NCBI GenBank assembly: GCA_032139905.1
Contig: JAQJDB010000006.1
Location: 1 to 64,000, forward strand
Direction: 5' to 3'
From: Nitrospira sp. MA-1
GTDB lineage: Bacteria > Nitrospirota > Nitrospiria > Nitrospirales > UBA8639
Length of the DNA stretch: 64,000 nucleotides
Shown: piece after piece, positions 4,496 through 20,923 of the stretch
Layout: each line of letters opens with the position of its first letter
Position numbering within the stretch: the first letter of the stretch is position 1
Made by a program: the position numbers and the translations under genes
The notes under the pieces: model-generated
Told to the model about the DNA's origin: nothing
The model's database searches: none
What the model saw: only the letters and a program-made list of their open reading frames with translations

Positions 4496-7400
4496 ATGAA
4501 CAAGGTTGAGCAAGATCCTTTATCCGTGAAGAGTTGGAAATGGCTTCGAGACATCGTTGATGAGGCGTGTCAGCCCATCGGTCCATATTGGCCGATGAAA
4601 TCATTTGCCTATTATAATCCCATTCGAGACCTCGAGCATTTACCATTTGCCCGTGCGATCGAGGCCGCAAATCAGTTGTTGGGTGCCAAGGGGTTTCTGC
4701 CTGTTGGAGAGTATCGCCAACTTTTTCATCAAGGTCGAATCACTCTTTCGGCCATTGACCAGGCTCTTCGGCGCGTAGGACCTCCCCTGCCGTCTCGAAC
4801 CACTGTGCAGGTTGGTGACCGTAGCATCCATGTCCAAGATGTCTGGCGCATTCATGCTATATACGGGATTGAAATTTTACCTGCTGTGCTGCTGACGTGG
4901 ACACTGGAACTAGAAGGTCTGAACACACGATTTCGATCTGATCTTCCGGAGAATTCTCGAACATCCATTATTAACCGAACTATTCGAGAGTGCGAGAAGT
5001 GCCGACATGATCCGGAATCGGCCTATCTGCACAACCTCTGGAAAAGTTCGTTGGCGGCCTGCCAATTGTTCGACCCTGTGTCGGGTGAGGGTTCTTTCCA
5101 TGCATCGGACCTTGGTCGGAGCTCCCATCTATCAGGAAAAGAGGCCCATTCTGTCACAGTTGACTTACCTAAAGACCGAACGCTGAGTGATTGGCTGGAC
5201 AGTGAGACGGGGAGCGCGCTGGTTGAGACCATTAATACGCACATGATCAAATGGATTGCGGCATTTGTAGACGAAGGTGTTGCGGGATGGAGTATGCCTT
5301 CAAGAGATAAGGGGTTTTTTGCTGCATGGCGAGAATTGGCCGAAGGGGACCTCTCAGGCAAATTTCTCGGGATTCCCGATCTTCGACAAAAGTTTCGCGA
5401 ATTATCCGACGTACCGGAAGAGATGTTGTGCAAACATCTGCAGAATCTCAATATCCCGAAGGAACGTTGGCAAGAGTATCTCTGCCGTCATCTGGCTCAA
5501 TTGCCAGGTTGGGCAGGGTTTATTCGCTGGCGTGGAGACCATCCTGGGTATCCCGCCCAGCAACATTACCCCATTGATCCTCTGCAATATCTGGCCGTCC
5601 GGCTCTTTTATGAATCGGGAATGGTGGAGGGACTTTGCCAACGGGAATGGGGCATCAAGGGGACGTTACCTGGACTCCTTGCCTATTGGAACAAACAGGG
5701 TACGCATGAACAGGCGTTGAGTCTCTCTTCTTCTCACGCCACTGTTGCTAATGATCAGGCGGTGTGCCATCAAGCTTGGCGTCTTTTTCACCTGGCTCAG
5801 TTTTTGGAACTGACCCCAATTGAGGTACACGAATTGTCTTATAGCGACACGTCAACCTTATTGGAATGGTTGGATCTCTTTCCCCAATCTTCACATGGAC
5901 CGGTATGGCTTGAAGCGTATGAGGACGTCTATCGTGAGTCATTGCTGAGGAACATCAGCGGACATCAGGCTGTGGCTCCCGTTAGCAATCAACGGCCTCG
6001 GGCGCAAGGGATTTTTTGTATTGATGCCCGCTCAGAATCGTTTCGTCGTCATCTTGAAGCTCAGGGACCGTATGAAACATTTGGGTATGCGGGATTTTTT
6101 GGGGTGCCCATGAGTCATGTGGCATTTGATAGCCACGACCACTTAGCATTGTGTCCAATTCTGTTGACACCGAAAGCGGAAGTGATCGAAGTTCCCCGAA
6201 TGGGGCAGCATGAAAGGGTGAAGAGCTATCTTTCCGGAACCAGATGGCATCAATTCAGTCATCACCTCTTTCACGATCTGAAACACAATCCATTTGCCTC
6301 CTTTATGCTGATTGATGTGTTAGGAATCTTTTTTAGTGTTGGATTGGTCGGAAAAACACTCTTTCGAACCTCCTTCGATGCCATCAAACAGTGGTTGCAC
6401 CAGTGGTTGGGGAGCACCGTTGTCACGCACATTCCTGTTGAGCCTTCAGGTGATGACGAACATAAAAATCCCCCTGTGGGAGAACTGGCACAAGGTTTTA
6501 CCACATTGGAGCAAGCGGCCTTTGTGGAGGGTGGATTGCGTGTGATCGGGCTCACGAAAAATTTTGGACGGTTTGTGATGGTTTGCGGTCATGGAAGCCA
6601 ATCCGATAATAATCCCTATTACGCGGCCCTGGACTGTGGGGCATGTGGGGGCAGTCATGGTGACCCGAATGCTCGTGCCTTTTCGGCCATGGCCAATAAT
6701 CCAGAGGTCCGACAGATTCTGAACGATCATGGGCTGGTTATTCCGGAGGACACCTGGTTTCTTCCCGCCAAACATAACACCACCACAGATCAAGTGATGT
6801 TGTATGACCTTGTCGATGTTCCTGCTATCCATTTAGAGGAATTAGGACTGTTGGTGAGAGACTTGGAGCAGGCTGGCACACATCAGGCATTGGAACGATG
6901 TGGACGAATTCCCGGCGCTCCGACAGCCGTGTCTCCCAATGAAGCGTTTAAACATGTCAGGCAACGGAGCATGGATTGGGCGAATTCTCGTCCTGAATGG
7001 GGATTGTCAGGGAACGCTGCCTTTTTGATTGGAAGGCGGGCCCTTACCAAGGGGCTGGATTTGGGAGGGAGAGTTTTTTTGCATTCCTACGATCCCGGAT
7101 CCGATCTTGATGGAAGCCTTCTTGAAAAAATCATGACCGCACCCCTCATCGTGGGTGAATTGATTAGCTTAACGTATTACTTTTCCGGGGTGGATCCTTG
7201 GGCCTATGGGAGTGGAAGCAAAGTCATTCACAATATGGTTGGCGGAGTTGGGGTGATGTTGGGGAGTCAAAGTGATCTGCAAAAAGGCCTTCCCCTTCAA
7301 TCGGTAAACGATGGGGCGCGGCATTATCATGAACCCATGCGCTTGCTCGCCATCATTGAGGCACCGCCGGATCGAATCCGGTCTATCATTCAGAAGCATA

Positions 7401-7522
7401 CATTGCTTCAACATGTCTTCCATAACCAATGGATGAATGTCATAGCGTTTGATCCAGATTCCAAAGGATTTTCACGTTATCTCTCGGATTCAACGTGGGA
7501 ACCCGTCACGACTACAATATAA
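4496..7522 (+). CDS. dabA: DabA-like inorganic carbon transporter subunit (DUF2309)
   Basis: The 1008-residue protein belongs to the DUF2309/UPF0753 family, whose characterised member DabA is a beta-carbonic-anhydrase-like, membrane-associated protein that takes up CO2/bicarbonate with a NuoL-like partner. The four predicted zinc ligands are present: C508 and D510 in FCIDARSE, H699 in VCGHGSQSDNNPY and C714 in DCGACGG; the 15-residue H-to-C spacing equals that reported for Halothiobacillus DabA. It is longer than the typical 800-870 residues, with extra N-terminal sequence. No signal peptide or clear multi-pass topology is seen. It heads a same-strand series of Mrp/complex I-like subunits, although a 478-base gap with a strong hairpin intervenes. 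Confidence 0.93.
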   Translation: MNKVEQDPLSVKSWKWLRDIVDEACQPIGPYWPMKSFAYYNPIRDLEHLPFARAIEAANQLLGAKGFLPVGEYRQLFHQGRITLSAIDQALRRVGPPLPSRTTVQVGDRSIHVQDVWRIHAIYGIEILPAVLLTWTLELEGLNTRFRSDLPENSRTSIINRTIRECEKCRHDPESAYLHNLWKSSLAACQLFDPVSGEGSFHASDLGRSSHLSGKEAHSVTVDLPKDRTLSDWLDSETGSALVETINTHMIKWIAAFVDEGVAGWSMPSRDKGFFAAWRELAEGDLSGKFLGIPDLRQKFRELSDVPEEMLCKHLQNLNIPKERWQEYLCRHLAQLPGWAGFIRWRGDHPGYPAQQHYPIDPLQYLAVRLFYESGMVEGLCQREWGIKGTLPGLLAYWNKQGTHEQALSLSSSHATVANDQAVCHQAWRLFHLAQFLELTPIEVHELSYSDTSTLLEWLDLFPQSSHGPVWLEAYEDVYRESLLRNISGHQAVAPVSNQRPRAQGIFCIDARSESFRRHLEAQGPYETFGYAGFFGVPMSHVAFDSHDHLALCPILLTPKAEVIEVPRMGQHERVKSYLSGTRWHQFSHHLFHDLKHNPFASFMLIDVLGIFFSVGLVGKTLFRTSFDAIKQWLHQWLGSTVVTHIPVEPSGDDEHKNPPVGELAQGFTTLEQAAFVEGGLRVIGLTKNFGRFVMVCGHGSQSDNNPYYAALDCGACGGSHGDPNARAFSAMANNPEVRQILNDHGLVIPEDTWFLPAKHNTTTDQVMLYDLVDVPAIHLEELGLLVRDLEQAGTHQALERCGRIPGAPTAVSPNEAFKHVRQRSMDWANSRPEWGLSGNAAFLIGRRALTKGLDLGGRVFLHSYDPGSDLDGSLLEKIMTAPLIVGELISLTYYFSGVDPWAYGSGSKVIHNMVGGVGVMLGSQSDLQKGLPLQSVNDGARHYHEPMRLLAIIEAPPDRIRSIIQKHTLLQHVFHNQWMNVIAFDPDSKGFSRYLSDSTWEPVTTTI

Positions 7523-8000
7523 TTTTGCGATGGGAAGGGAAGTCTTTTGGACGTTTGCCGTGCTTGGAATGGCAGAGCGAATCCCGCATCATCTCTGATG
7601 AGAGATGTTTGTTTCCCAGGGATTTCGGTTCCACCTACAGGATCCAGTTGTCCTAAGAAGGCTGGCTAAAAGACTCCGATCGAACCCTTCCCTTGATTCG
7701 CAGTTGTGGATGGAAGAGGGTGCCTGGTATAAGGTCAGAGGCTTGTGGGTTGTTGAAAAGGATGAGGCTCCTCTTTGTATTTGGCGCAGACCAAGTAGGG
7801 AGAGTGGGAGCATCCGGTTTTCCGAAATGTCATTTGCATCATGGCCGTAGGGTTCCCAGCATTTTGTTTGTTCCGATAGGCTGGAGACAGTACATGCCAA
7901 CCAGGTTTTTTGAATACCTCATTCGAAAAACATATGGTTGGCTTTTTTTTTACCGAATCGGATTCATTGAGTTTAGATTTTGGTCTGAGAATAGCGCAGG
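7523..8000. other. Intergenic between dabA and mrpE
   Basis: This 478-base gap has no recognisable gene. An 81-codon plus-strand frame (7605-7850) has no family resemblance and no convincing ribosome-binding site, so I do not call it. The final part carries the strong hairpin at 7896-7951, so the gap may contain the dabA terminator and a separate promoter for the antiporter genes. Confidence 0.5.
7896..7951 (+). terminator. Strong intrinsic terminator or attenuator between dabA and mrpE
   Basis: GCCAACCA (7896-7903) pairs perfectly with TGGTTGGC (7935-7942), with an inner stem TTTTTTGAAT / ATTCGAAAAA, and nine T residues follow (7943-7951). This is a textbook intrinsic terminator on the plus strand. 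It ends only about 50 bases before the mrpE start, so it may set the ratio of dabA to antiporter transcripts rather than simply end dabA. Confidence 0.8.
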
Positions 8001-8492
8001 ATGAAGTCTTCTTATCCGAAACAGTTTATCGCTAACACCTTGGCCCTTTTTAGTGTCTGGCTTGTGTTATCGGGGAAGTACGACAATTTTCACCTCGTAC
8101 TTGGATTCATGGCATCTTGTGGAGTGGCGTGGTTAAACACGGGATTCCCTCATTCTCCCTTCCATAATTTCCCATGGGCTCGTGTGGTTCTGTACAGCCC
8201 CTGGCTCTTTCTTCGTATTGTTGAGAGTAGTCTGCACTTGACGAAACTCATTCTCAATCCCTCATTACCCATTAGTCCCAGACTCATTACCTATCAGTCT
8301 CATTTAAAGCATAAGGGTGCCATTGTCCTGCTTGGAAATTCTGTGACCTTGACGCCTGGCACCATTACCGTTGAAGCCAACGGCAATACGCTTCTGGTGC
8401 ATGCGATAGATGGGACAGCAGCAAAGGACCTCACGACAGGCCGGATGGAGCGTAAACTCGCCTGGGTCTTTCAGGAAGATACGAATCACTGA
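8001..8492 (+). CDS. mrpE: Mrp-type Na+/H+ antiporter subunit E
   Basis: The 163-residue protein is an MrpE/MnhE subunit: short N-terminal hydrophobic helices (NTLALFSVWLVLSG and following) and a C-terminal cytoplasmic part with the family pattern SVTLTPGTITVE and VHAIDG. It is an inner-membrane subunit of Mrp antiporters. Its stop overlaps the start of the next gene by one base (TGATG), indicating tight coupling. It opens the run E-F-G-(A C-term)-B-C-D-NuoL-NuoM. Confidence 0.93.
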   Translation: MKSSYPKQFIANTLALFSVWLVLSGKYDNFHLVLGFMASCGVAWLNTGFPHSPFHNFPWARVVLYSPWLFLRIVESSLHLTKLILNPSLPISPRLITYQSHLKHKGAIVLLGNSVTLTPGTITVEANGNTLLVHAIDGTAAKDLTTGRMERKLAWVFQEDTNH

Positions 8493-8758
8493 TGCGTGAT
8501 TTTTTTCTGTTTTTATTAATCACTTTGTCTTTTCTGATTCTCGTGTATCTATACCGGGTGATTCAGGGTCCCACCGTGTTTGATCGGGTATTAGGGTTAG
8601 CGGGAATTTCGACCAAAGCCATCATTCTGGGTGTTGTGATGGGAACAGTCTATGACCGGGTAGAAATGTTCGTGGATATCTCCACGGGGTATGCGCTTCT
8701 CAATTTAGTTGGAGCATTTGCCATTGCCAAATTTCTTGAGCAACGAGGGACACCCTAA
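8492..8758 (+). CDS. mrpF: Mrp-type antiporter subunit F
   Basis: The 88-residue product has three membrane helices and the MrpF signature YRVIQGPTVFDRVLGL in its first loop, plus a conserved acidic residue in the MFVDISTGYALLN segment. In Mrp complexes MrpF packs with E and G in the small-subunit part. It is placed between mrpE (1-base overlap) and mrpG (start immediately after the stop). Confidence 0.93.
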   Translation: MRDFFLFLLITLSFLILVYLYRVIQGPTVFDRVLGLAGISTKAIILGVVMGTVYDRVEMFVDISTGYALLNLVGAFAIAKFLEQRGTP

Positions 8759-9058
8759 ATGGTCGTTCTTGCCATCGGGTTAATTCTAGTAGGGGTGTTT
8801 TTTTTAGTTGTAGCTGCAATTGGCACACTACGCCTTCCCGACGTGTTTACGCGATCCCATGCGGTCTCTCTGACTGATTCCCTTGGTGCCATTTGCGTCC
8901 TTGCGGGCCTTGCTTTGTACCAGGGATTCGGGATCAATATGCTGAAGATCCTGGTCGTCCTGGTCTTGCTCATCCTGTTAAATCCCGTCATTGCTCATGC
9001 CACCATTCGAGCGGCCAATCGGGCAGGCCTCAAACCTCAGACGAAGGAAGACCCATGA
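8759..9058 (+). CDS. mrpG: Mrp-type antiporter subunit G
   Basis: The 99-residue protein has three membrane helices and the MrpG/MnhG core GTLRLPDVFTRSHA, the most diagnostic motif of this subunit. It is one of the small hydrophobic subunits of the Mrp complex. Its TGA overlaps the ATGATG start of the next gene, so translation is probably coupled. Confidence 0.93.
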   Translation: MVVLAIGLILVGVFFLVVAAIGTLRLPDVFTRSHAVSLTDSLGAICVLAGLALYQGFGINMLKILVVLVLLILLNPVIAHATIRAANRAGLKPQTKEDP

Positions 9059-9588
9059 TGTATTCAGTGAATATTGCTTTGCTGTTACTCCTGGTCCTGA
9101 CGGCCGCCAGCGCAACATTTTTGGTCAAGGAATTGATGAGTTCAGTGTTTATTCTCGGGTCGTATAGTTTTTTCCTATCTCTAGTTTGGGCTTGGCTGGG
9201 TGCGGTGGATGTGGCATTTGTGGAAGCGGTTATTGGGGCTGGATTGGGCACGGTGTTGTTCCTCATCACCCTGTTTGATACCGCTCCAAAAGATAGCCGC
9301 CTTCGTCGTCCCCCTCCTCCTCTGGCAGGAGTGCTGGGCTTGCCCTTGTTGGGCCTGCTGTTGTTACTCGCGGCTAATGATCTTCCTCAGTTTGGCGACC
9401 CGACCTCACCGCCCAACGTGCATATTTCTCCTGTGTACTTACAGAATAGCTATGCGGACACGCTCACGCCGAATGTGGTCACCTCGGTGCTGATGGACTA
9501 TCGGGCATTTGATACGTTGATTGAGACCGTGGTGATTTTTACGGCTGGCATTGCCTGTGCGTTGTTATTAAGGGAGCCAGGCTCATGA
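9055..9588 (+). CDS. Detached MrpA C-terminal-like subunit (DUF4040/MbhD-MbhE-like)
   Basis: The 177-residue membrane protein matches the part that in MrpA is fused behind the NuoL-like domain. Its first half (LVKELMSSVFILGSYSFFLS, then EAVIGAGLGTVLFLITLF) is the DUF4040/MbhD-like domain. The end, with NVVTSVLMDYRAFDTLIETV, is the MbhE/MrpA C-terminal segment. The start is the ATGATG at 9055 overlapping the mrpG stop; the longer upstream frame merely reads through mrpG. Having it as a separate gene resembles Mbh hydrogenase and split-Mrp arrangements. Confidence 0.85.
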   Translation: MMYSVNIALLLLLVLTAASATFLVKELMSSVFILGSYSFFLSLVWAWLGAVDVAFVEAVIGAGLGTVLFLITLFDTAPKDSRLRRPPPPLAGVLGLPLLGLLLLLAANDLPQFGDPTSPPNVHISPVYLQNSYADTLTPNVVTSVLMDYRAFDTLIETVVIFTAGIACALLLREPGS

Positions 9589-10034
9589 AACAGATCCATG
9601 ACAGCATCATTGTTCAGAGCATGAGTCGATTGCTCATTCCTCTGGCACAGTTATTTGCCTTTTATGTCTTGTTCTTCGGCCAGTACGGCCCGGGAGGAGG
9701 ATTTGTAGCTGGCGTCATTTGGACGACCAGTATGATCCTGGCCTTTTTGGTGTTTGGGCTGAAGTCCCCTCAGGGGCGTCTGGTAGAAAAGGTGTTGCAT
9801 GGCGATGGGATCGGATTGATTATTTTTGTGGGAGTGGGTGGTTTATGTCTCATCGGAGGTGGGGAATTTCTAAACTATGCCAATTTGGAAATTCCGGGTT
9901 TGGATGCTCCGGCACGTCGGTACATGGGGATTCTATTAGCACAAATCGGGGTGGCCGTGGACGTGGCGGTGACCGGAATCTCTATTGTTCTCAGCTTGGC
10001 CTATCACGATACTGAGCAGGAGTATGATGTTTGA
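9585..10034 (+). CDS. mrpB: Mrp-type antiporter subunit B
   Basis: The 149-residue protein carries the MnhB domain: an N-terminal helix ending in FYVLFFGQYGPGGGF, the diagnostic G-rich loop of MrpB, then three more membrane helices with DVAVTGISIVLSL at the end. It overlaps the preceding gene by four bases (ATGA) and the next gene starts inside its last codons. Confidence 0.93.
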   Translation: MKQIHDSIIVQSMSRLLIPLAQLFAFYVLFFGQYGPGGGFVAGVIWTTSMILAFLVFGLKSPQGRLVEKVLHGDGIGLIIFVGVGGLCLIGGGEFLNYANLEIPGLDAPARRYMGILLAQIGVAVDVAVTGISIVLSLAYHDTEQEYDV

Positions 10035-10404
10035 GTTGATTGGGGGGTGGCTCCAGCGCCCCAACTATATTGCCTTTGTTCTTCTGTTTCTGTGGGGCAT
10101 CTATATTATGGTGACCCGGTACAATCTGGTGAAAAAACTCATCGGGATGTATCTCATGCAAACAAGTGTGATTTTTTTTCTCGTCACGACAAGTGCCAAG
10201 CGAGACGCTACGGTGCCTATTTTGCTCTCCACTACGGAGATTATTCAGCCGGAAGTCTACGCCAATCCTCTCCCTCATGTTCTGACATTGACGGCGATTG
10301 TCGTGGGCGTTGCCACCCTGGGAGTATCTTTGGCCCTGGCCGATGCCATTTATAAAAAATACGGCAGCCTGGACGAAGAAGAAATTCTCAAAAGGATGGA
10401 ATGA
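10024..10404 (+). CDS. mrpC: Mrp-type antiporter subunit C (NuoK-like)
   Basis: The product is about 126 residues with three membrane helices, homologous to NuoK. Typical features are the first-helix loop NLVKKLIGMYLMQTSVIFFL and the last helix PHVLTLTAIVVGVATLGVSL. The start is ATGATG at 10024/10027, inside the end of mrpB, in place of the longer frame starting at 9985. MrpC sits next to MrpD in the complex and belongs to the proton-path core shared with respiratory complex I. Confidence 0.92.
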   Translation: MMFELIGGWLQRPNYIAFVLLFLWGIYIMVTRYNLVKKLIGMYLMQTSVIFFLVTTSAKRDATVPILLSTTEIIQPEVYANPLPHVLTLTAIVVGVATLGVSLALADAIYKKYGSLDEEEILKRME

Positions 10405-11870
10405 CGCGACACCTTCCCGTAATCCTTTTCCTCTTACCTCTCGGTTTGGCCATTTGTCTACCATTAATCGGTGTCAGGCGTCGGGAGTGGTGCCGGCCAT
10501 TAGCGATTGGTGTGCTGGCTGCCATGGTCCCGGTCTCATTCGCCAGTCTGGCAGGAGTTCTTCAAAACGGGACCATTCATTATGACTTTGGGGGATGGGC
10601 GGCCCCGGTTGGGATTGAGTGGGTGGCGGACGGATTGGCCAGCATCATGACTGTGGCTTTAAGTCTCGTCGGGTTGGTATGTATCACCTTCCTCAGCTCG
10701 GTATTATTTCCCTATCTCGGCAGTCGGATTGTCCCTTTTTATACCCTGGTCCTGTTATTGATCGCCAGTCTGATCGGCATGGTGTTTGCCGGAGATCTGT
10801 TCAATCTTTTCGTTTTTTTAGAAGTATCCGCCTTGTGTGCCTATGCCTTGGTTGGATTGGCTGGTGGGAAAGCTCTTGTCGCAGGATTCCGGTATTTAAT
10901 TCTAGGCACGTTCGGAGCTTCCCTGTATCTCCTGGGGGTAGGGTACTTATATGCTGAAACGGGCACGCTCAATATGGCGGATCTGGCGCAGCGGGTGCCA
11001 CCCTTGGTGGGCTCTAAGGCCATCGCTGTCGGAGTGTTATTTATGTTTATCGGTCTGGGGATCAAGATGGCGTTGGTACCGCTCCACGGGTGGTTGCCGG
11101 ATGCCTACACATATGCTCCGGACCGCGTATCACCCATGCTGGCTTCGCTAGTGACCAAGGTCGCCCTCTATGGATGGATCCGTATCATGTTTTGGGTGCT
11201 CGGAGCCCATGCGGTAGTCTACCGGATTCCCGTTCTGTTTTTAGTGGGAGTGTTGGGCGCTCTTGCTGCTTTGGTTGGCGCATTCCTGGCTTTGTCCCAG
11301 ACAGAAATTAAACGCATGTTTGCCTATGGAGGGCTTTCGCATATCGGATTGATTCTGGTGGGCATTAGTCTTGGGAATCAAACCGGTTTTGTCGGAGGAG
11401 TGTTTTATCTCTTGAATGATGCTGTGATGCAGGCGGGTTTGTTTTTCTGGGCAGGGGCGATTATTCACCTGTATGGGGTTCGCACAATTGAGGATCTTGG
11501 GCGATTGCAAGGAGGAGCGGGATGGATGTCGGTTGCTCTGGTGGTCATAGCCCTGTCGATGATCGGAATTCCTCCAACAGGGGGATTTTTTGGAAAATGG
11601 TATATTATTCTTGGCGCCGTGGAAGCGCAGAACTACCTAGCCATTGTCGCGGTGCTGATTGCGACTCTGTTAACTCTTGCCTACTTCGCTAAATTGTTTG
11701 AACGGCTGTTTCGGGACCGGTCCGCCCAGCAGCCTCTTCCCATACGTGAGATTCCGTTGGCGGTGCGAATTGGTCTCGGCGCAACCTCAGTAGGGGTCAT
11801 TGTGTTGGGAGTGATGAGCGATCACATTGTCAGCTTTCTCCTCAAGAATGCGCTTCCGCCTGGGCTTTAG
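10401..11870 (+). CDS. mrpD: Mrp-type antiporter subunit D (NuoN/NuoM-like)
   Basis: The 489-residue protein is an antiporter-type subunit with about 14 membrane helices. Family landmarks include FLEVSALCAYALVGLAGG, carrying the conserved glutamate of helix 5, then GIKMALVPLHGWLPDAYTYA with the conserved lysine and the HGWLPDAY loop, then ALSQTEIKRMFAYGGLSHIG with the helix-8 lysine. These charged residues form the proton channel in complex I-like antiporters. It overlaps mrpC by four bases. Confidence 0.93.
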   Translation: MTRHLPVILFLLPLGLAICLPLIGVRRREWCRPLAIGVLAAMVPVSFASLAGVLQNGTIHYDFGGWAAPVGIEWVADGLASIMTVALSLVGLVCITFLSSVLFPYLGSRIVPFYTLVLLLIASLIGMVFAGDLFNLFVFLEVSALCAYALVGLAGGKALVAGFRYLILGTFGASLYLLGVGYLYAETGTLNMADLAQRVPPLVGSKAIAVGVLFMFIGLGIKMALVPLHGWLPDAYTYAPDRVSPMLASLVTKVALYGWIRIMFWVLGAHAVVYRIPVLFLVGVLGALAALVGAFLALSQTEIKRMFAYGGLSHIGLILVGISLGNQTGFVGGVFYLLNDAVMQAGLFFWAGAIIHLYGVRTIEDLGRLQGGAGWMSVALVVIALSMIGIPPTGGFFGKWYIILGAVEAQNYLAIVAVLIATLLTLAYFAKLFERLFRDRSAQQPLPIREIPLAVRIGLGATSVGVIVLGVMSDHIVSFLLKNALPPGL

Positions 11871-11899
11871 GAGAATTGGGCATATGGTGTATTTCTGAT

Positions 11900-14077
11900 A
11901 TGGCATTCCTCATCCTTATTCCCCTCCTTCCTCTGATGGCCGTTCTGATTCTCGTGCTGGGGAAACTCTGGCTAGGCGAGCAAGGTCATAAAATCGGGAT
12001 CCCGGCGATGGCCCTCTCCTTCGCTTGTTCCATCATCGCGTTTGCTCAAGTGGCAACCGACGGGGCCTTTTCCATCCCTCTCTATCGCCTGATCCATTCT
12101 GGCGACCTGGTTGTCGATTTGGGGTTGTATGTCGACCAACTCACCGTGTTGCTTCTGCTCTTGGTGACCGGTGTGAGCAGCGTGGTGCATGTATACGCGT
12201 CCCGCTATATGATCGGCGATCCCCGGTATAACCGATTCTTTGCCGTCATCGCGTTGTTTACGTTTTCGATGATCATGCTGGTCATGAGCAATAACCTGCT
12301 CATGATGTTTGTGTTCTGGGAAATCATGGGTATCTGTTCCTATTTGTTGATTTCTCATTGGGGTGAGCGGCAGCCATCTGCTCAGGCGGCAACCAAGGCC
12401 TTTCTCGTGAATTCGGTTGCGGATGTGGGGTTTGGTTTCGGGGTCATTCTGAGCTATTCCACTTTTGGAACATTGGATATCCAGACGATTTTAGCGGAAG
12501 CCCCATCCATACAGGGAAACACCATCAACCTGTTCGGCTGGATCGGGTTGGACTTCCCGATTCATATCATCACGCTCATTACACTCTTTTTATTCTTGGG
12601 TGCCATGGGAAAATCCGCACAAATGCCATTTCACGTCTGGCTACCCTTTGCCATGGAAGCGCCTACGCCAGTTTCGGCTTTGATTCACGCCGCGACCATG
12701 GTGAATGCGGGGCCCTTCTTGTTGGTTCGCATGAGTCCCCTCGTGATACTTTCGCCTGATGCCATGACTGTCATTGCGGTAATTGGGGGCCTCACGGCCA
12801 TTTTTGCGACTCTGGTCTCCCTGACTCAGGTGGACATTAAACGCATGCTGGCGTTTTCCACGATTGGTCAAATCGGTTTTATGATCATGACCTGTGGAGT
12901 CGGGGCTTTTGTGTTATCTATTTTCCATATGCTGGCCCATGGCTGTTTGAAGGGATTTTTATTTTTATCGACGGGAAATGCGCTTCGTGTGGTTGGTTCT
13001 CATGGACATGAACCAACTTCATTTTCCCCACATGTGTCCTCGAACCATTCCTTGTGGCCAATCGTATCAGGGGCATTGGTGTTAGCCTGTTTCCCCCCCT
13101 TCCTTATTTTTTTCGGACCATATGAGCAATTGTGGATGATTCAACCGGGGTCCTCAGGCCAATGGACCTTTTGGATACTGGGGCTTTTGACGGTATTTTT
13201 TTCCGCCATGTATGTCATGCGCGGTGCTCTGTTGTTGTTTAATCAACCTCTATCCACCGCACGTGAAGATGGAATGGGAAGCCAGGCCATGAAGCCTCGT
13301 TTCTTTTCCCCCATTCATCTTCTGGGAATCTTGGCGATCATTGGAATTGTCGGGAGCCTATTACTGATCTTATGGAGTTGGTTTGCCGAATTTCTATCCC
13401 CGGTCGTGGGACATCGGATGCCGTATATACCAGAAAAATCTTCGAGTGGGCCTGGCTTGCAAGGTATTCTAGCTTTTGCCGTTGCTGTATGCGGTATCGT
13501 GGTTGGGTTCTTTTCCATGACAAAATTTTCCGGATCCTGGTTTCAACAATCAGAAATGGGCAAGCGCTGGTATGTCCATTTCCTGAATAAATTGTATTTT
13601 GACGAAATGTATGAAGCCTTTGTTGTGGCGCCCACTATCTGGTTTGCCCGATGGCTATGGCGGGTTGTCGACCGGAAAGTGTTTGACGCCCTGATCATGG
13701 GAATCGCGAATGTGTCGGTGTTGGCGGCGAAGTGGATGTGGCGGGTGGTGGACCTTCGCGGAATTGACGGGCTGGTGGTGGGTTTAGGTCGAAACAGCGT
13801 AGGAATTGCCGGGTGGCTCTGGCGGGTGGTGGATCTTCGAGGTGTCGATCGGGTCGTGGTAGGTATCGGTCAACGTAGCCTTGGTATCGCCGACTGGCTA
13901 TGGAAAAGTATCGAGATCAAAGTTCTCGACAAGAATGTAAATCGTGCCGGGAATCAAGCAGAGACTACCGGGAATTTGATGCGGGAATTGGAACCCCGCA
14001 CATTACAGCACCACTTACTGGTCATGATTTTCTGGCTCATTTTAGGCATTGGGCTATTATTTTGGCTTGTTGTGTGA
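11900..14077 (+). CDS. NuoL-like (MrpA N-terminal / DabB-like) membrane subunit with four 27-residue C-terminal repeats
   Basis: The roughly 725-residue protein is a NuoL/MrpA-type antiporter subunit. It contains MFVFWEIMGICSYLLI with the conserved glutamate, MGKSAQMPFHVWLPFAMEAP, and SLTQVDIKRMLAFSTIGQIG. It is the best candidate partner of DabA, since DabB proteins are NuoL relatives. From residue 585 (13652) four consecutive 27-residue units begin with W-x-W (WLWRVVD, WMWRVVDLRG, WLWRVVDLRG, WLWKSIE), before the last membrane helix. Such a motif normally occurs once in the NuoL lateral-helix region. I prefer ATG 11900; a TTG at 11876 is possible. Confidence 0.88.
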   Translation: MAFLILIPLLPLMAVLILVLGKLWLGEQGHKIGIPAMALSFACSIIAFAQVATDGAFSIPLYRLIHSGDLVVDLGLYVDQLTVLLLLLVTGVSSVVHVYASRYMIGDPRYNRFFAVIALFTFSMIMLVMSNNLLMMFVFWEIMGICSYLLISHWGERQPSAQAATKAFLVNSVADVGFGFGVILSYSTFGTLDIQTILAEAPSIQGNTINLFGWIGLDFPIHIITLITLFLFLGAMGKSAQMPFHVWLPFAMEAPTPVSALIHAATMVNAGPFLLVRMSPLVILSPDAMTVIAVIGGLTAIFATLVSLTQVDIKRMLAFSTIGQIGFMIMTCGVGAFVLSIFHMLAHGCLKGFLFLSTGNALRVVGSHGHEPTSFSPHVSSNHSLWPIVSGALVLACFPPFLIFFGPYEQLWMIQPGSSGQWTFWILGLLTVFFSAMYVMRGALLLFNQPLSTAREDGMGSQAMKPRFFSPIHLLGILAIIGIVGSLLLILWSWFAEFLSPVVGHRMPYIPEKSSSGPGLQGILAFAVAVCGIVVGFFSMTKFSGSWFQQSEMGKRWYVHFLNKLYFDEMYEAFVVAPTIWFARWLWRVVDRKVFDALIMGIANVSVLAAKWMWRVVDLRGIDGLVVGLGRNSVGIAGWLWRVVDLRGVDRVVVGIGQRSLGIADWLWKSIEIKVLDKNVNRAGNQAETTGNLMRELEPRTLQHHLLVMIFWLILGIGLLFWLVV

Positions 14078-14214
14078 TTCAACAGGGGGTTTTTCAGCAA
14101 TGTGGGGAAGACGCGTTCGGCATGAACAAACAAGGACTCTGGGTTTAAAAAAAGCGATAGGACGTCTTTCATGTTTTGGTGGTGTCATGATCGGCATTTC
14201 ATGAAGGGGAGACT

Positions 14215-15723
14215 ATGAACACAATCTTTATTGAACATCTTTTGAGTGTCATGATTGCCGTCCCGTTTGTGGGCATTGCGATTATCGCCTGTATTCAGAA
14301 TCAGGAATGGATTCGGCGCGTGGCTCTCGGGTGTACCATGGGGGATGGTGCTCTCTCATTGGTGCTATTAAAAGAGTTCGATTTTTCCATTCAAGGCATG
14401 CAATTCGTGGAGCGGATGGCATGGATGCCGACCTTTAATATTCAATATGCTGTCGGTGTGGATGGGATTAGTCTTCTCCTGGTTTTACTCACGACTTTGC
14501 TCTGCCCGTTTTGCGTGCTCTGTTCCTGGCAATCGATCACTACCCGTGTACGCTCCTTTATGGCGATGATTCTGTTGGTCGAAGGGGCCATGATCGTCGT
14601 CTTTACCGCTCTGGATCTGTTTTTGTTCTTCATGTTGTGGGAAGTCACCATGATTCCCATGTATTTCATGATCATTCTATGGGGTGGCCCCCAGCGCATA
14701 GCCGCCGGCATCAAATTCGTCTTGTACAGTTTGTCGGGAAGCCTGATTTTACTCTTGGCGATACTCGGGTTGTATGTGGAAGGAGGGCGGACATTCGATA
14801 TTTTAGCGTTGGCGGAGAAGACCTATTCCCCCGACGCCCAGTTTTGGATATTTTTGGCGTTCTTCCTGGCCTTTGCCATTAAATTACCCATGCTGCCTTT
14901 TCACACATGGCTACCGGATGCCCATTCCGAAGCTCCCACCGCCGGAAGCGTCCTGCTGGCTGGGGTGCTCTTGAAAATGGGTGGATATGGCTTTTTACGA
15001 TTTTGTCTCCCTATGTTTCCTGAAGCCTCAGTGACCTTTGCCCCGTTTATCCTGTGGTTATCCGTGGCGGCTATTGTGTATGGGGGGTATATGGCCTTGG
15101 CCCAATCGGACCTGAAAAAGCTGGTGGCGTATTCGTCCATTTCGCATATGGGATTCGTGACATTGGGAATTTTCGTGTTCAATAACCATGGTATTCAAGG
15201 AGCCATCTTGCAGATGGTGAACCATGGAATAACCACAGGAGCCCTCTTTTTGGCTGTCGGTCAATTGTATGATCGGACCCATAGCCGTTCGATTCAGGAT
15301 TACGGAGGATTGCAAAAATCGATGCCTAGATTTGTGGCACTTTTTTGCCTGTTTTCAGTGGCATCTTTCGGACTGCCTGGCACATGTAATTTTATTGGTG
15401 AATTTTTGGTCTTGGTCGGAACGTCTTTTGAAAGCTATGTCATGGTGTTGTTGTCCATGGGGGGCATTGTCCTCGCGGCGGCGTATATGCTCTGGATGCT
15501 CCAGCGGGTGGTGTTGGGACAACCAAAAAATTCCACCATCGCACAACTACCGGATCTCAGTATGCGTGAGCTGGCCACGGTGATCCCTCTTGCGGTATTA
15601 ATCTTGGGGATCGGTTTGTACCCGTCACCACTTATGGAAATGATGGATTCGAGCGTCACGCACTTGGCTCAGCATATGGCACAGTATCAGGTGGGGATGA
15701 TCCATGAGGTGGCCATTCGGTAA
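14215..15723 (+). CDS. NuoM-like antiporter subunit
   Basis: The 502-residue protein is a chain-M type complex I subunit with about 14 membrane helices. Diagnostic stretches are YAVGVDGISLLLVLLTTLL near residue 80, FFMLWEVTMIPMYFMIILWGG with the conserved glutamate, KLPMLPFHTWLPDAHSEAPT with lysine and the HTWLPDAH loop, and AQSDLKKLVAYSSISHMGF. It begins with a GGGGAG ribosome-binding site 5 bases before the ATG. As no other complex I subunits lie nearby, it belongs with the DabA/Mrp set rather than a NADH dehydrogenase. It follows the NuoL-like gene after 137 bases. Confidence 0.9.
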   Translation: MNTIFIEHLLSVMIAVPFVGIAIIACIQNQEWIRRVALGCTMGDGALSLVLLKEFDFSIQGMQFVERMAWMPTFNIQYAVGVDGISLLLVLLTTLLCPFCVLCSWQSITTRVRSFMAMILLVEGAMIVVFTALDLFLFFMLWEVTMIPMYFMIILWGGPQRIAAGIKFVLYSLSGSLILLLAILGLYVEGGRTFDILALAEKTYSPDAQFWIFLAFFLAFAIKLPMLPFHTWLPDAHSEAPTAGSVLLAGVLLKMGGYGFLRFCLPMFPEASVTFAPFILWLSVAAIVYGGYMALAQSDLKKLVAYSSISHMGFVTLGIFVFNNHGIQGAILQMVNHGITTGALFLAVGQLYDRTHSRSIQDYGGLQKSMPRFVALFCLFSVASFGLPGTCNFIGEFLVLVGTSFESYVMVLLSMGGIVLAAAYMLWMLQRVVLGQPKNSTIAQLPDLSMRELATVIPLAVLILGIGLYPSPLMEMMDSSVTHLAQHMAQYQVGMIHEVAIR

Positions 15724-17423: not shown

Positions 17424-19067
17424 CTAATGGACTGCCGGTTCTGTGGGATTGCCGGAGCTACTCGGGCTATGATGTTGGAGGAGTCCGGTGTCGTAGAGAT
17501 ATGCTGTCGCCGGATCTAATAAAAAATACACGGCAAACAGACCGACGCTCGCCATGGTCAACGTATAGGGAAGCGCCATCCAGACCATTTTCCCATATGA
17601 TAAACGGATAACCGGAGCGAGTGAAGAGGTGAGTAAAAATAAAAATGCGGCCTGTCCGTTTGGCGTCGCCACACTGGGAATATTCGTGCCGGTATTGATG
17701 GCAACGGCCAAAAGGTCAAATTGGTCACGGGTAATGGTGCCCGCCTGGTAGGCGCGGAGCACTTCCTGGACATAAACCGTCGCAACAAAGACATTGTCGC
17801 TGATGGCCGAAAGAATGCCATTGGCCAGATAAAACATGCCGATTTGATGCGATCCCTCCAAGCTTAATCCATAGCCGATAATGCCCGAAAACAGGTTCTG
17901 GTCCTGGATCACGGCCACAATGGCGAAAAAAACCACGAGGAGCGCCGTGAAGGGAAGCGCTTCCTTGAACGCTTCTCCAAGTTGATGCTCATCGATAATC
18001 CCGTTAAAGGCGGTAATGAACACGATCACCGTGAGTCCGATAATTCCGACCTCCGCCAGGTGAAAGGCTAAGGCAAAAATCAACCAAATGCCCGCAATGG
18101 CTTGAATGATAAGCTTCGCCGTGTCCGCGGAATCTCGTCGTTTCTGTTGCTCGGTCTCGAATTCCACCAAGATGAGGCGAACGGGATCTGGGAGTTGAAA
18201 GCCATAATCAAACCATCGTAATTTCTCAACGATGATGCAGGTGAACAATCCTGTGGCCAGAACAGGAAGCGTCACGGGGGCCATGCGCAAAAAGAACTCC
18301 AGAAATTCCCAGCCCGCTTTGTCCGCGATTAATAAATTTTGGGGTTCACCTACAAGAGTACAGACTCCGCCCAAGGCTGTTCCAACCGCTCCGTGCATTA
18401 ATAAATTGCGAAGGAAGCCTCGGAAATTGTCTAAATTTTCACGGTGGAGAGAGTCGATCTCATGATCGCTTGTCGAATCATAAGAGGTCTGCGACGATTT
18501 GCCGGAGGCCACCCTGTGGTAAATGTTATAGAAACCCAACGCGACGGCAATGATGACTGCTGTGACCGTCAAGGCATCGAGGAATGCCGAAAGAAAGGCA
18601 CCCATAATGGAAAACAAGAGTCCCAATAAAACTTTTGAACGGACGCCCAATAAAATTTTGGTAAACAGAAACAGGAGTAAATCTTTCATGAAGTAGATCC
18701 CGGCCACCATGAAAATCAATAGCAGGATCACTTGGAAATTATTGAGTGCTTCATGATAGACCGTTGCCGGAGTGGTCATCCCCAATAGGACAGCTTCAAG
18801 TGCGAGCAAGCCACCGGGTTGTAGCGGATAACTTTTGAGAGCCAGGGCTAAGGTAAAGATAAATTCCAGGATGAGCACCCACCCGGTGAAAAAGGAACCA
18901 ATGCTCATTAATAAAATGGGATTGAGGATTAAAAATCCCAGGATAGTCAGCTTGTACCAGGTTGGAGTGTGGTTCAAGAAATTCTGTATGAGCGCCTGAG
19001 GGACTGTCGTTTTCATTTCAGTTAGGTGACCTTTCGGACCGGTGGTCCCAGATGGAGTCTGACTCAT
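17424..19067 (-). CDS. nhaB: Na+/H+ antiporter NhaB
   Basis: The 547-residue polytopic protein matches NhaB, an electrogenic sodium/proton antiporter of the inner membrane. It has the N-terminal [18 protein letters not shown] segment and a core with [19 protein letters not shown]. The segments [20 protein letters not shown] and [19 protein letters not shown] contain the buried acidic and polar residues of the ion-transporter superfamily. A hydrophilic insert at about residues 185-215 ([18 protein letters not shown]) separates helices. It lies 146 bases downstream of a SulP transporter on the same strand; by extruding Na+ it could support sodium-coupled anion uptake. Confidence 0.88.
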
Positions 19068-19213: not shown

Positions 19214-20923
19214 TTAGGAGGGTTCCGGATTTTTAGACAGAACTTTCGTGGGAGGGGTATCGAACGGATGGGTGGATCCGCCGATATGAGCTGCGTGGCG
19301 TAATGCATCCAACCGAAGAGGGTATCGATGCTCGGGTGGGACCTGATCCAGCACCCCGAGTCCTTTGAGGACTCGAGCCACTCCCGGACGCATACCCACG
19401 AAAAAAACATGCTGCTGATGAGTTTTCACCATCAGGAGCATGTCTTCGATGGCTAATGCAGCGGTTCCGTCAATAGACGGCACCGATGTGAGATCAAGAA
19501 CCACGCTGGAAAAAGAATTGAACCCTTTCACAGATTCTAACCGACGAACCATGTCCTTAGCCGATCCGAAACTCATCGGCCCATTCACATGAATCATGAT
19601 AATGCGCTCGCAGTTTCGATCGAGGATGCGTTGCTCCTCTTTTAACAGTGGTGTTTCGTTCGAGGCACCAGTGATCACACTGAGATTTTCAAGTTCCAGG
19701 TCGGCCATGCGCTTCACGAACATTACACTGGCCAAGACCACGCCAATTCCCACAGCCGTGATGAGGTCTACTAAAACAGTAACCAACAAGACCACGATCA
19801 TCACCAGAACTTCGGTTCGTGGAGCCTGCACCATATGTTTCAGAAATCGCCAATCGATAATATCGAATCCGACTTTGATAAGCAGGCCGGCGAGGACTGC
19901 AAGTGGAATTTTTTCGGCCAGAGGACCCAAGCCAAGCAATGTACCTAGGAGGACGACCGCCATAAACATGCCAGAGATAGGCGTACGGCCTCCAGTGCGA
20001 ATGTTCGCCACAGATCTCATGGTGGCGCCGGCTCCAGGAAGGCCTCCGAAAAATCCCGCAGCCATATTCCCAATGCCTTGGCCGATCAATTCCCGATTGG
20101 AGTCATGTTGGGTCCGCGTCATGTTGTCACAGACGAGAGAAGTCAGAAGGCTATCAATTGTTCCCAATAATGCCAGGACAAGGGCTTCCTCAACCATGAG
20201 TAAGAGTGTACTGGTATGCATGGTTGGCCAAATTAGCGTGGGAAATCCTGAAGGAATGTCTCCGATTACCGGAAGGGTCGGGAAGAACATCTCACCGACA
20301 GTCGTTCCAACGATGAGAGCCAGCAACACCGGAGGAAGACGTTTGCCGATAGAGGCAGGAGTGAGATACACAATGGCTAGTGTGAGAGAACCCACCAACA
20401 TGGCGGGAAGAGAAAAAGATGCGAGGTACTCGGGCATCGCCATGAGGTTGGCCACGACTTTGGACTTCGCTTCCAGTCCGAGAAAGGGTGCAACCTGAAG
20501 AATGAGAATAATTCCTCCGATGCCGCTCATGAATCCTGAAATAACAGGATAAGGGACCAAGGTGATATAACGACCAAACCCCATCAATCCAAATAAGACT
20601 TGAAATCCACCTCCGAGAATGACGGCCGTAAATGCCACTGCCGGTTCATCGGCAAAGTTCAAGATGATGCCGGCCATTACCACGGTCATCGGACCGGTCG
20701 GTCCTGAGGCCTGTGCAGGCGTCCCGCCGAAGAGCGCTGCGAAAAACCCCACAAAGATAGCCCCATAGAGGCCGGCTATGGCACCGAGTCCGGATGTCAC
20801 TCCAAAGGCTAGGGCTAGGGGTAGAGCCACGACCGCTGCCACTAATCCACCATACAGGTCTCCCCGTATGTTATTGAAATGAAGGCCGTGAACCCAGGAA
20901 AGTATTGGAAAGGTAGCTGCCAT
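19214..20923 (-). CDS. SulP family inorganic anion transporter with STAS domain
   Basis: The 569-residue protein has the SulP transmembrane domain (residues about 15-400, with GLVAAVVALPLALAFGVTSG and GGTPAQASGPTGPMTVV) and a C-terminal STAS domain (about 435-545, with VVLDLTSVPSIDGTAALAIE). SulP members carry sulfate, bicarbonate or other anions; the bicarbonate transporter BicA belongs here. Substrate cannot be read from the sequence. Its location beside NhaB and across from the DabA/Mrp cluster makes bicarbonate a reasonable guess, sulfate the main alternative. Confidence 0.88.
   Translation of the reverse strand: MAATFPILSWVHGLHFNNIRGDLYGGLVAAVVALPLALAFGVTSGLGAIAGLYGAIFVGFFAALFGGTPAQASGPTGPMTVVMAGIILNFADEPAVAFTAVILGGGFQVLFGLMGFGRYITLVPYPVISGFMSGIGGIILILQVAPFLGLEAKSKVVANLMAMPEYLASFSLPAMLVGSLTLAIVYLTPASIGKRLPPVLLALIVGTTVGEMFFPTLPVIGDIPSGFPTLIWPTMHTSTLLLMVEEALVLALLGTIDSLLTSLVCDNMTRTQHDSNRELIGQGIGNMAAGFFGGLPGAGATMRSVANIRTGGRTPISGMFMAVVLLGTLLGLGPLAEKIPLAVLAGLLIKVGFDIIDWRFLKHMVQAPRTEVLVMIVVLLVTVLVDLITAVGIGVVLASVMFVKRMADLELENLSVITGASNETPLLKEEQRILDRNCERIIMIHVNGPMSFGSAKDMVRRLESVKGFNSFSSVVLDLTSVPSIDGTAALAIEDMLLMVKTHQQHVFFVGMRPGVARVLKGLGVLDQVPPEHRYPLRLDALRHAAHIGGSTHPFDTPPTKVLSKNPEPS

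Follow-up and report, generated by a model that had tools for sequence, protein, structure and literature searches.

The dabA-mrp-nuoLM gene cluster

The window analysed here, a stretch of 64,000 nucleotides from Nitrospira sp. MA-1 (assembly GCA_032139905.1, contig JAQJDB010000006.1, positions 1 to 64,000 of the forward strand), carries a gene for DabA, the zinc-containing, beta-carbonic-anhydrase-like subunit of DAB carbon pumps, that is followed on the same strand by nine genes for membrane subunits (Table 1). These encode, in this order, MrpE, MrpF, MrpG, a detached C-terminal part of MrpA, MrpB, MrpC, MrpD, a NuoL-like and a NuoM-like protein. Families were assigned through Pfam and NCBIfam profile searches, which agreed for each gene and bear out all ten genes, with their positions, that an initial annotation had recognised from the DNA.

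From mrpE through mrpD, neighbouring genes overlap or abut, while 478 bp separate dabA from mrpE and 137 bp lie between the nuoL- and nuoM-like genes. MrpB to MrpG are all encoded; full-length MrpA with its N-terminal antiporter module is missing. No NuoB, NuoC, NuoD, NuoH or hydrogenase gene was found among the proteins examined between positions 745 and 24892, and the other antiporter-like genes of the genome, those of complex I included, are located on contigs C1 and C7. A second dabA gene, overlooked in the initial annotation, belongs to an ordinary operon of contig 3 (dabB, a gene for a 391-residue protein, dabA, and a gene for a PII-like protein); the window dabA thus represents a separate type within one genome. 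The 391-residue protein (L003:13573-14745), a membrane protein without a Pfam match, also occurs in relatives of this strain.

Table 1. Genes and sequence features of the dabA-mrp-nuoLM cluster, with their positions in the window
Feature	Position	Strand	Evidence
dabA (Mrp-partnered type), zinc beta-carbonic-anhydrase-like subunit, 1008 residues	4496..7522	+	PF10070, 845 bits over whole model; DabA2 (PDB 9rd0), E=3e-114
DabA active-site codons: C508, D510, R512 (6017-6031), H699 (6590-6592), C714 (6635-6637)	6017..6637	+	Alignment to DabA2
DabA membrane finger helix; buried Asp607 (codon 6314-6316) replaces DabA2 Glu444	6290..6361	+	Alignment; helix 599-622 in predicted structure
mrpE	8001..8492	+	MNHE PF01899; sole MNHE of the genome
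mrpF	8492..8758	+	PF04066
mrpG	8759..9058	+	PF03334; TIGR01300 above cut-off
mrpA C-terminal part as separate gene (MbhD and MbhE domains, DUF4040)	9058..9588	+	PF13244, PF20501; PRK12504 above cut-off
mrpB (MnhB)	9585..10034	+	PF04039
mrpC, NuoK-like (Oxidored_q2)	10027..10404	+	PF00420 and MrpC models
mrpD, TM12 Lys retained	10401..11870	+	PF00361; MrpD models; Lys395 equivalent in 14/14
nuoL-like, sister of DabB, proposed docking partner of DabA	11900..14077	+	TIGR01974 above cut-off; tree; loss of TM12 Lys-Asp; top distance correlation with DabA
Pro407-Tyr408 codons, where E. coli NuoL has Lys399-Asp400 (TM12)	13118..13123	+	Alignment
Four 27-residue repeats (residues 588-695), long lateral helix of NuoL-like subunit	13661..13984	+	
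nuoM-like, TM12 Glu407 retained	14215..15723	+	TIGR01972, 620 bits, above cut-off

Active site and finger helix of DabA

Alignment with DabA2 confirms the catalytic residues Cys508, Asp510, His699 and Cys714 that had been pointed out in the 1008-residue DUF2309 protein. Together with Arg512 they correspond to DabA2 Cys351, Asp353, His524, Cys539 and Arg355, and they are invariant in the aligned relatives; both the zinc ligands (Cys2His) and the Asp-Arg dyad are intact in the window DabA and the members examined. The hydrophobic residue Leu658, found at the position of a Gln or His in beta-carbonic anhydrases, is a Leu in 36/36 Mrp-partnered DabA proteins. The predicted structure of the window DabA is of moderate quality (predicted local distance difference test, pLDDT, 70), with a beta-carbonic anhydrase as the best Foldseek match at an E-value of only 0.012.

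In the structure of DAB2, as described in passages of its report, a finger helix of DabA2 enters DabB2, and Glu444 of this helix stands in for Lys399/Asp400 of NuoL; the substitutions E444A and E444Q abolish activity (PMC13144422). A substitution E444D was not found in the excerpts of that paper (PMC13144422). The finger residue of the DabA proteins compared here follows their partners, as it is an Asp in 36/36 Mrp-partnered proteins versus a Glu in 78/78 DabB-partnered ones. The Glu444 characteristic of DAB systems is therefore absent from the Mrp-partnered type, its place being taken by Asp, which is still an acid. Eight further Asp-type DabA proteins stand outside these partner counts; their genes lie at contig ends, have a displaced mrp cluster, or belong to locus L147.

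A third class of DabA proteins carries His at the place of Leu658, as do ordinary beta-carbonic anhydrases, and Asp, Ala, Pro or Ser at that of Glu444 (L130-L132, L134-L138, L141, L155, L156, L160, L162, L171, L173, L180). Its genes mostly lie beside NuoL/NuoM-type genes, several have SulP-looking genes nearby, and L132 also has a beta-carbonic anhydrase gene. Leu658 was called strict in 150 homologues in passages of the DAB2 report (PMC13144422). An extra, solitary dabA of the Glu444 type without dabB occurs in four loci of family f2 (L036, L039, L042, L043), three of which have a gene nearby that, by its appearance, putatively encodes an isocitrate dehydrogenase.

The NuoL-like subunit as counterpart of DabB

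The charged pair Lys399-Asp400 in transmembrane helix 12 (TM12) of NuoL is missing from the NuoL-like subunits: neither residue is present in 37/37 proteins, which mostly possess Pro-Tyr instead. DabB likewise lacks this pair, while the two complex I NuoL proteins of the same genome retain the motif SKDE at TM12. NuoM Glu407 and MrpD Lys395 are intact in 14/14 proteins; hence, of the three candidate partners, only the NuoL-like subunit looks prepared to receive the finger of DabA. Apart from TM12, the NuoL-like subunits retain E144, K229, K305, H334 and H338, as well as the lateral helix and the last transmembrane helix that tie the modules of complex I together.

In a quick tree with some long branches, the NuoL-like subunits form the sister group of DabB (support 98) and do not fall inside the DabB clade; the two groups together adjoin complex I NuoL, at a distance from MrpA, outside whose clade the NuoL-like subunits are placed. 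An assignment of the NuoL-like protein as a plain complex I NuoL, hinted at by its TIGR01974 and PDB matches, was accordingly rejected on the basis of the tree and the TM12 loss. Its predicted structure is of moderate quality (pLDDT 68), with complex I ND5/NuoL as the top Foldseek match. The DabA tree shows the same split as that of the partners, the DabB-partnered proteins being separated from all others (support 98), and the basal rows L061, L030, L089 and L147 occupy matching places in the DabA and NuoL-like trees. Evolutionary distances of DabA correlate best with those of the NuoL-like subunit (0.87; 0.91 in the core set), the highest value of all DabA pairs and also the highest in 954 of 1000 subsets, while values for NuoM and the Mrp subunits are lower (0.46-0.78). 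These values suggest a core of DabA and NuoL, with Mrp and NuoM more loosely associated.

The sister relation to DabB and the shared loss of the TM12 charge pair identify the NuoL-like subunit as the DabB counterpart. Judged by these trees and residues, the catalytic pair is DabA plus the NuoL-like protein, with Mrp and NuoM as an added part. The initial annotation, which had envisioned a full Mrp set instead of a single DabB, was thus half right: dabA is indeed tied to the mrp, nuoL- and nuoM-like genes, but the NuoL-like gene is itself the counterpart of dabB, and Mrp plus NuoM are the addition.

The C-terminal tail of the NuoL-like subunit varies among relatives by whole repeats, with lengths of mostly about 105, 132 or 160 residues and 78 in one case. 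The length of the lateral helix was considered as a ruler for the number of subunits, an idea that was abandoned since tail length ranges from 78 to 160 residues among loci with the same set of genes.

Distribution of the cluster among bacterial genomes

The same gene order is found in more than 30 other genomes of Nitrospirota, Nitrospinota, Acidobacteriota, Myxococcota, and Alpha- and Gammaproteobacteria, and the arrangement is therefore not due to chance; dabA is the first gene of the cluster in every phylum in which it was found. In a scan of GTDB species genomes, this order turned up in 24 named loci, some of which come from the same genomes as the loci fetched in our genome search. Their hosts belong to Nitrospirota, Nitrospina/Nitrospinaceae, Acidobacteria (Bryobacterales, Terriglobia), Myxococcota, Rhodospirillaceae and Gammaproteobacteria, the latter comprising Woeseiaceae, Arenicellaceae and the cultured Pseudohaliea rubra DSM 19751 (L128). 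Going by record titles, the hosts appear to be marine or haloalkaline. DabA occurs in 127/296 genomes of the window's phylum; among the fetched loci, the Mrp type is present in the window's own family f1 and a few others, and family f2, presumably Nitrospiraceae, has DabB-type or solitary dabA genes with a single Mrp-type exception (G167/L089). Marine nitrite oxidisers and their neighbours are the main carriers of the Mrp-type dabA cluster. The initial annotation had considered that dabA might not be conserved next to these genes in related genomes; it is, and only a few genomes keep both parts separated.

Joint retention and loss

Full-length Mrp-type dabA and mrpE were scored in 34 good genomes of the window's family. 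Both are present in 25, and in seven neither is intact (a truncated dabA and a relic of mrpB are left in G065 and G200, nothing in the other five); in one, G227, both parts have decayed, and what is left is mrpEFG, a fragment of nuoM and a truncated dabA. The remaining genome, G297, was rejected as a case of dabA without mrp and is uninformative because its contig ends 0.5 kb past dabA. A genome with one part intact and the other lost was not found among the family's informative good genomes. In G081, both parts are retained at a distance of 263 kb from each other, and an ordinary dab operon sits between dabA and mrpE in G133, G137 and G307. Genomes of this family keep or lose dabA, mrp and nuoLM as a set, whether or not these genes are linked.

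Insertions of an ordinary dabB-dabA-PII operon, in opposite orientation, between Mrp-type dabA and mrpE were observed in L019/L090, L020/L091 and L195. In three genomes that have lost the catalytic half of Mrp-type dabA (L086, L087, L190), the N-terminal half still forms an open reading frame of about 505-550 residues.

Proposed function and alternative explanations

The locus is real and widely conserved, and we regard it as a variant of the DAB carbon pump. In our assessment, it probably encodes a multi-subunit DAB system in which DabA hydrates CO2 while docked on the NuoL-like subunit, itself part of a membrane arm of the MBH/Mrp type (MBH, membrane-bound hydrogenase) that includes NuoM. 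DabA, with its zinc beta-carbonic-anhydrase fold, would bind the NuoL-like subunit from the cytoplasmic side and insert its finger helix into the TM11-14 region of that subunit. There the buried Asp607 would make up for the charge of Lys399/Asp400, present in ordinary NuoL but lost from the NuoL-like protein, in the way that DabA2 Glu444 does in DabB2. NuoL-like, NuoM and MrpD-C-B-A'-G-F-E would belong to one arm of the MBH/Mrp kind, held together by the long lateral helix, with DabA and NuoL-like at one end of the longer Mrp/NuoM part. Downhill flow of ions, protons and perhaps Na+ via the Mrp block, might open the buried active site, so that CO2 hydration would be driven one way and bicarbonate trapped inside the cell. 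The Mrp block, the neighbouring NhaB and SulP genes and the seemingly marine or haloalkaline habitats of the hosts hint at Na+ as the coupling ion. Gene content, its conserved order, the finger-residue code, the kinship with DabB and the joint retention and loss can be read from the sequences; the single physical complex, its direction, coupling ion and stoichiometry are what we infer. A further-reaching view would have the cluster encode a vectorial carbonic anhydrase of ten subunits, powered by Na+ or protons, that belongs to the complex I/Mrp superfamily but has a non-redox zinc enzyme in place of the redox part. This view is a little more apt to be wrong than right, and we offer it tentatively.

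Several observations weigh against a single multi-subunit pump. The 478-bp gap behind dabA, widened to 1.4-1.9 kb in L029 and L189, would allow the two parts to be transcribed separately. E144 is kept in 37/37 NuoL-like subunits and lost in DabB (Ile151 in DabB2); the register of the TM12 alignment shifts by one or two residues, and a non-conserved Glu adjoins the TM12 site in many NuoL-like sequences. All losses of the cluster occurred in one genus and thus reflect few independent events. Furthermore, locus L147, from outside the family, has DabA, NuoL and NuoM, and no mrpE was detected anywhere in its genome; the Mrp part is therefore separable and probably not strictly required. L147 also speaks for two machines encoded in one operon, with DabA and the NuoL-like protein (perhaps with NuoM) forming a complete DAB pump and Mrp acting on its own as an Na+/H+ antiporter that expels the incoming Na+ or H+. 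So do the dabA-less Mrp blocks of the phylum (L095, L096, L099, L101), the closer tracking of DabA with NuoL than with any Mrp subunit, and the sufficiency of DabB2 alone in H. neapolitanus, according to passages of PMC13144422. However, the Mrp block lacks the N-terminal antiporter module of MrpA if neither NuoL nor NuoM provides it, dabA, mrp and nuoLM decay together and persist together even when unlinked, and NuoL retains the lateral helix and last transmembrane helix of the complex I type, so that we regard two separate machines as unlikely, though by no means far-fetched.

It appears improbable that the cluster moves bicarbonate with Na+ (or through Na+/H+ exchange) without any hydration of CO2, since the zinc ligands, the Asp-Arg dyad and Leu658 are all kept in the members examined; such transport has been proposed for MpsAB as an Na+/HCO3- symporter (cited in passages of PMC13144422), and it would suit the many marine hosts and the NhaB and SulP genes downstream. 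The same neighbours and the marine and haloalkaline hosts would fit an Mrp antiporter for pH and salt homeostasis with dabA as a bystander, an explanation to which we give the least credence of all, as dabA is first in the cluster across all phyla found and the match between finger Asp and TM12 loss ties DabA to the NuoL-like subunit. Because CO2 hydration gives little energy at cellular concentrations, it is also highly improbable that the system runs in reverse, with an exergonic carbon reaction driving ion export. This direction was suggested in general terms for YbcC operons, since a system with several antiporter modules might transport several ions in each turnover (passages of PMC5700660); DAB2, however, is proposed to run on proton-motive force (passages of PMC13144422).

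Relation to known systems

With the MBH/Mrp block (MbhA-H; group 3 Mrp) the cluster shares the order E-F-G-A'-B-C-D, which we take to be that of MBH, and the MbhD and MbhE domains in A'. In contrast to MBH and Mrp, it has NuoL, NuoM and DabA instead of a hydrogenase or other redox part, none of which was found beside it, and it has no full-length MrpA. According to passages of the DAB2 report, DabA2-DabB2 (PDB 9rd0) shares the DabA family, zinc site, Leu658, the finger helix with a buried acid, and a NuoL-kind partner without the TM12 Lys-Asp pair; the window system differs from it by a NuoL-type partner with lateral helix, C-terminal transmembrane helix and E144, by the Asp in place of Glu444, and by eight further membrane subunits in the operon (PMC13144422). 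An analogy may be seen in the cyanobacterial NDH-1MS complex, in which, as portions of its description state, the zinc-containing CO2-hydrating subunit CupA resides on the terminal NuoL-type NdhF3 next to the NuoM-type NdhD3 of a multi-subunit arm (PMC6981117). The fold of CupA is, however, unlike that of beta-carbonic anhydrases and DabA, and NDH-1MS has a ferredoxin/plastoquinone redox drive and no Mrp subunits (PMC6981117).

YbcC (DabA) operons with an extra NuoM and SulP were grouped as 'clade C' in the COGNAT study (PMC5700660). They share dabA upstream of a nuoL-type gene, extra membrane genes and a SulP gene often nearby, but passages of the text name no Mrp genes, and the third, His658-containing DabA class appears to be their match rather than the Mrp type (PMC5700660). 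In 'Ca. Nitrospira alkalitolerans', a locus with Mrp, nuoL/nuoM, nhaB, bicA and motB was read as an antiporter for pH homeostasis, with dabA unmentioned in the relevant passages (PMC7784846). This locus is probably orthologous; the window has OmpA-, NhaB- and SulP-type genes at the same place. The mrp-nuoLM part of lineage IV Nitrospirales was likewise read as an antiporter in passages that do not mention dabA (PMC12342949). No report of the DabA-Mrp linkage or of the Asp/Glu code was found in the literature searched, which excluded subscription papers and preprints.

If the ten-subunit view is true, it would add a third architecture for energised CO2 capture to DabAB and NDH-1MS. Under our proposal, nitrite oxidisers (Nitrospira lineage IV, Nitrospina) would gain a carbon pump previously unrecognised as such. 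A single residue swap would connect complex I/Mrp with DAB, both of them large families, and loci annotated as pH-homeostasis antiporters would receive a new reading. The Asp/Glu code makes the partner type of a DabA predictable from its sequence, and it points to the place where ion flow and CO2 hydration are coupled, a question raised in the DAB2 paper.

Neighbouring genes and related Mrp clusters

The Mrp clusters without dabA in L095, L096, L099 and L101 consist of E-F-G-A'-B-C-D and a further MrpD-like gene, mostly with a NuoM-like gene in addition; in G157, a dabA-less Mrp cluster is divergent from the dabA cluster. Downstream in the window, a SulP gene (19214-20923, minus strand) lies beside an NhaB gene (17424-19067, minus strand). 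Beyond the window's nearest relatives, many Mrp-type loci have a SulP-type gene shortly upstream of dabA on the same strand (e.g., L120:8251, L128:8206, L022:3497).

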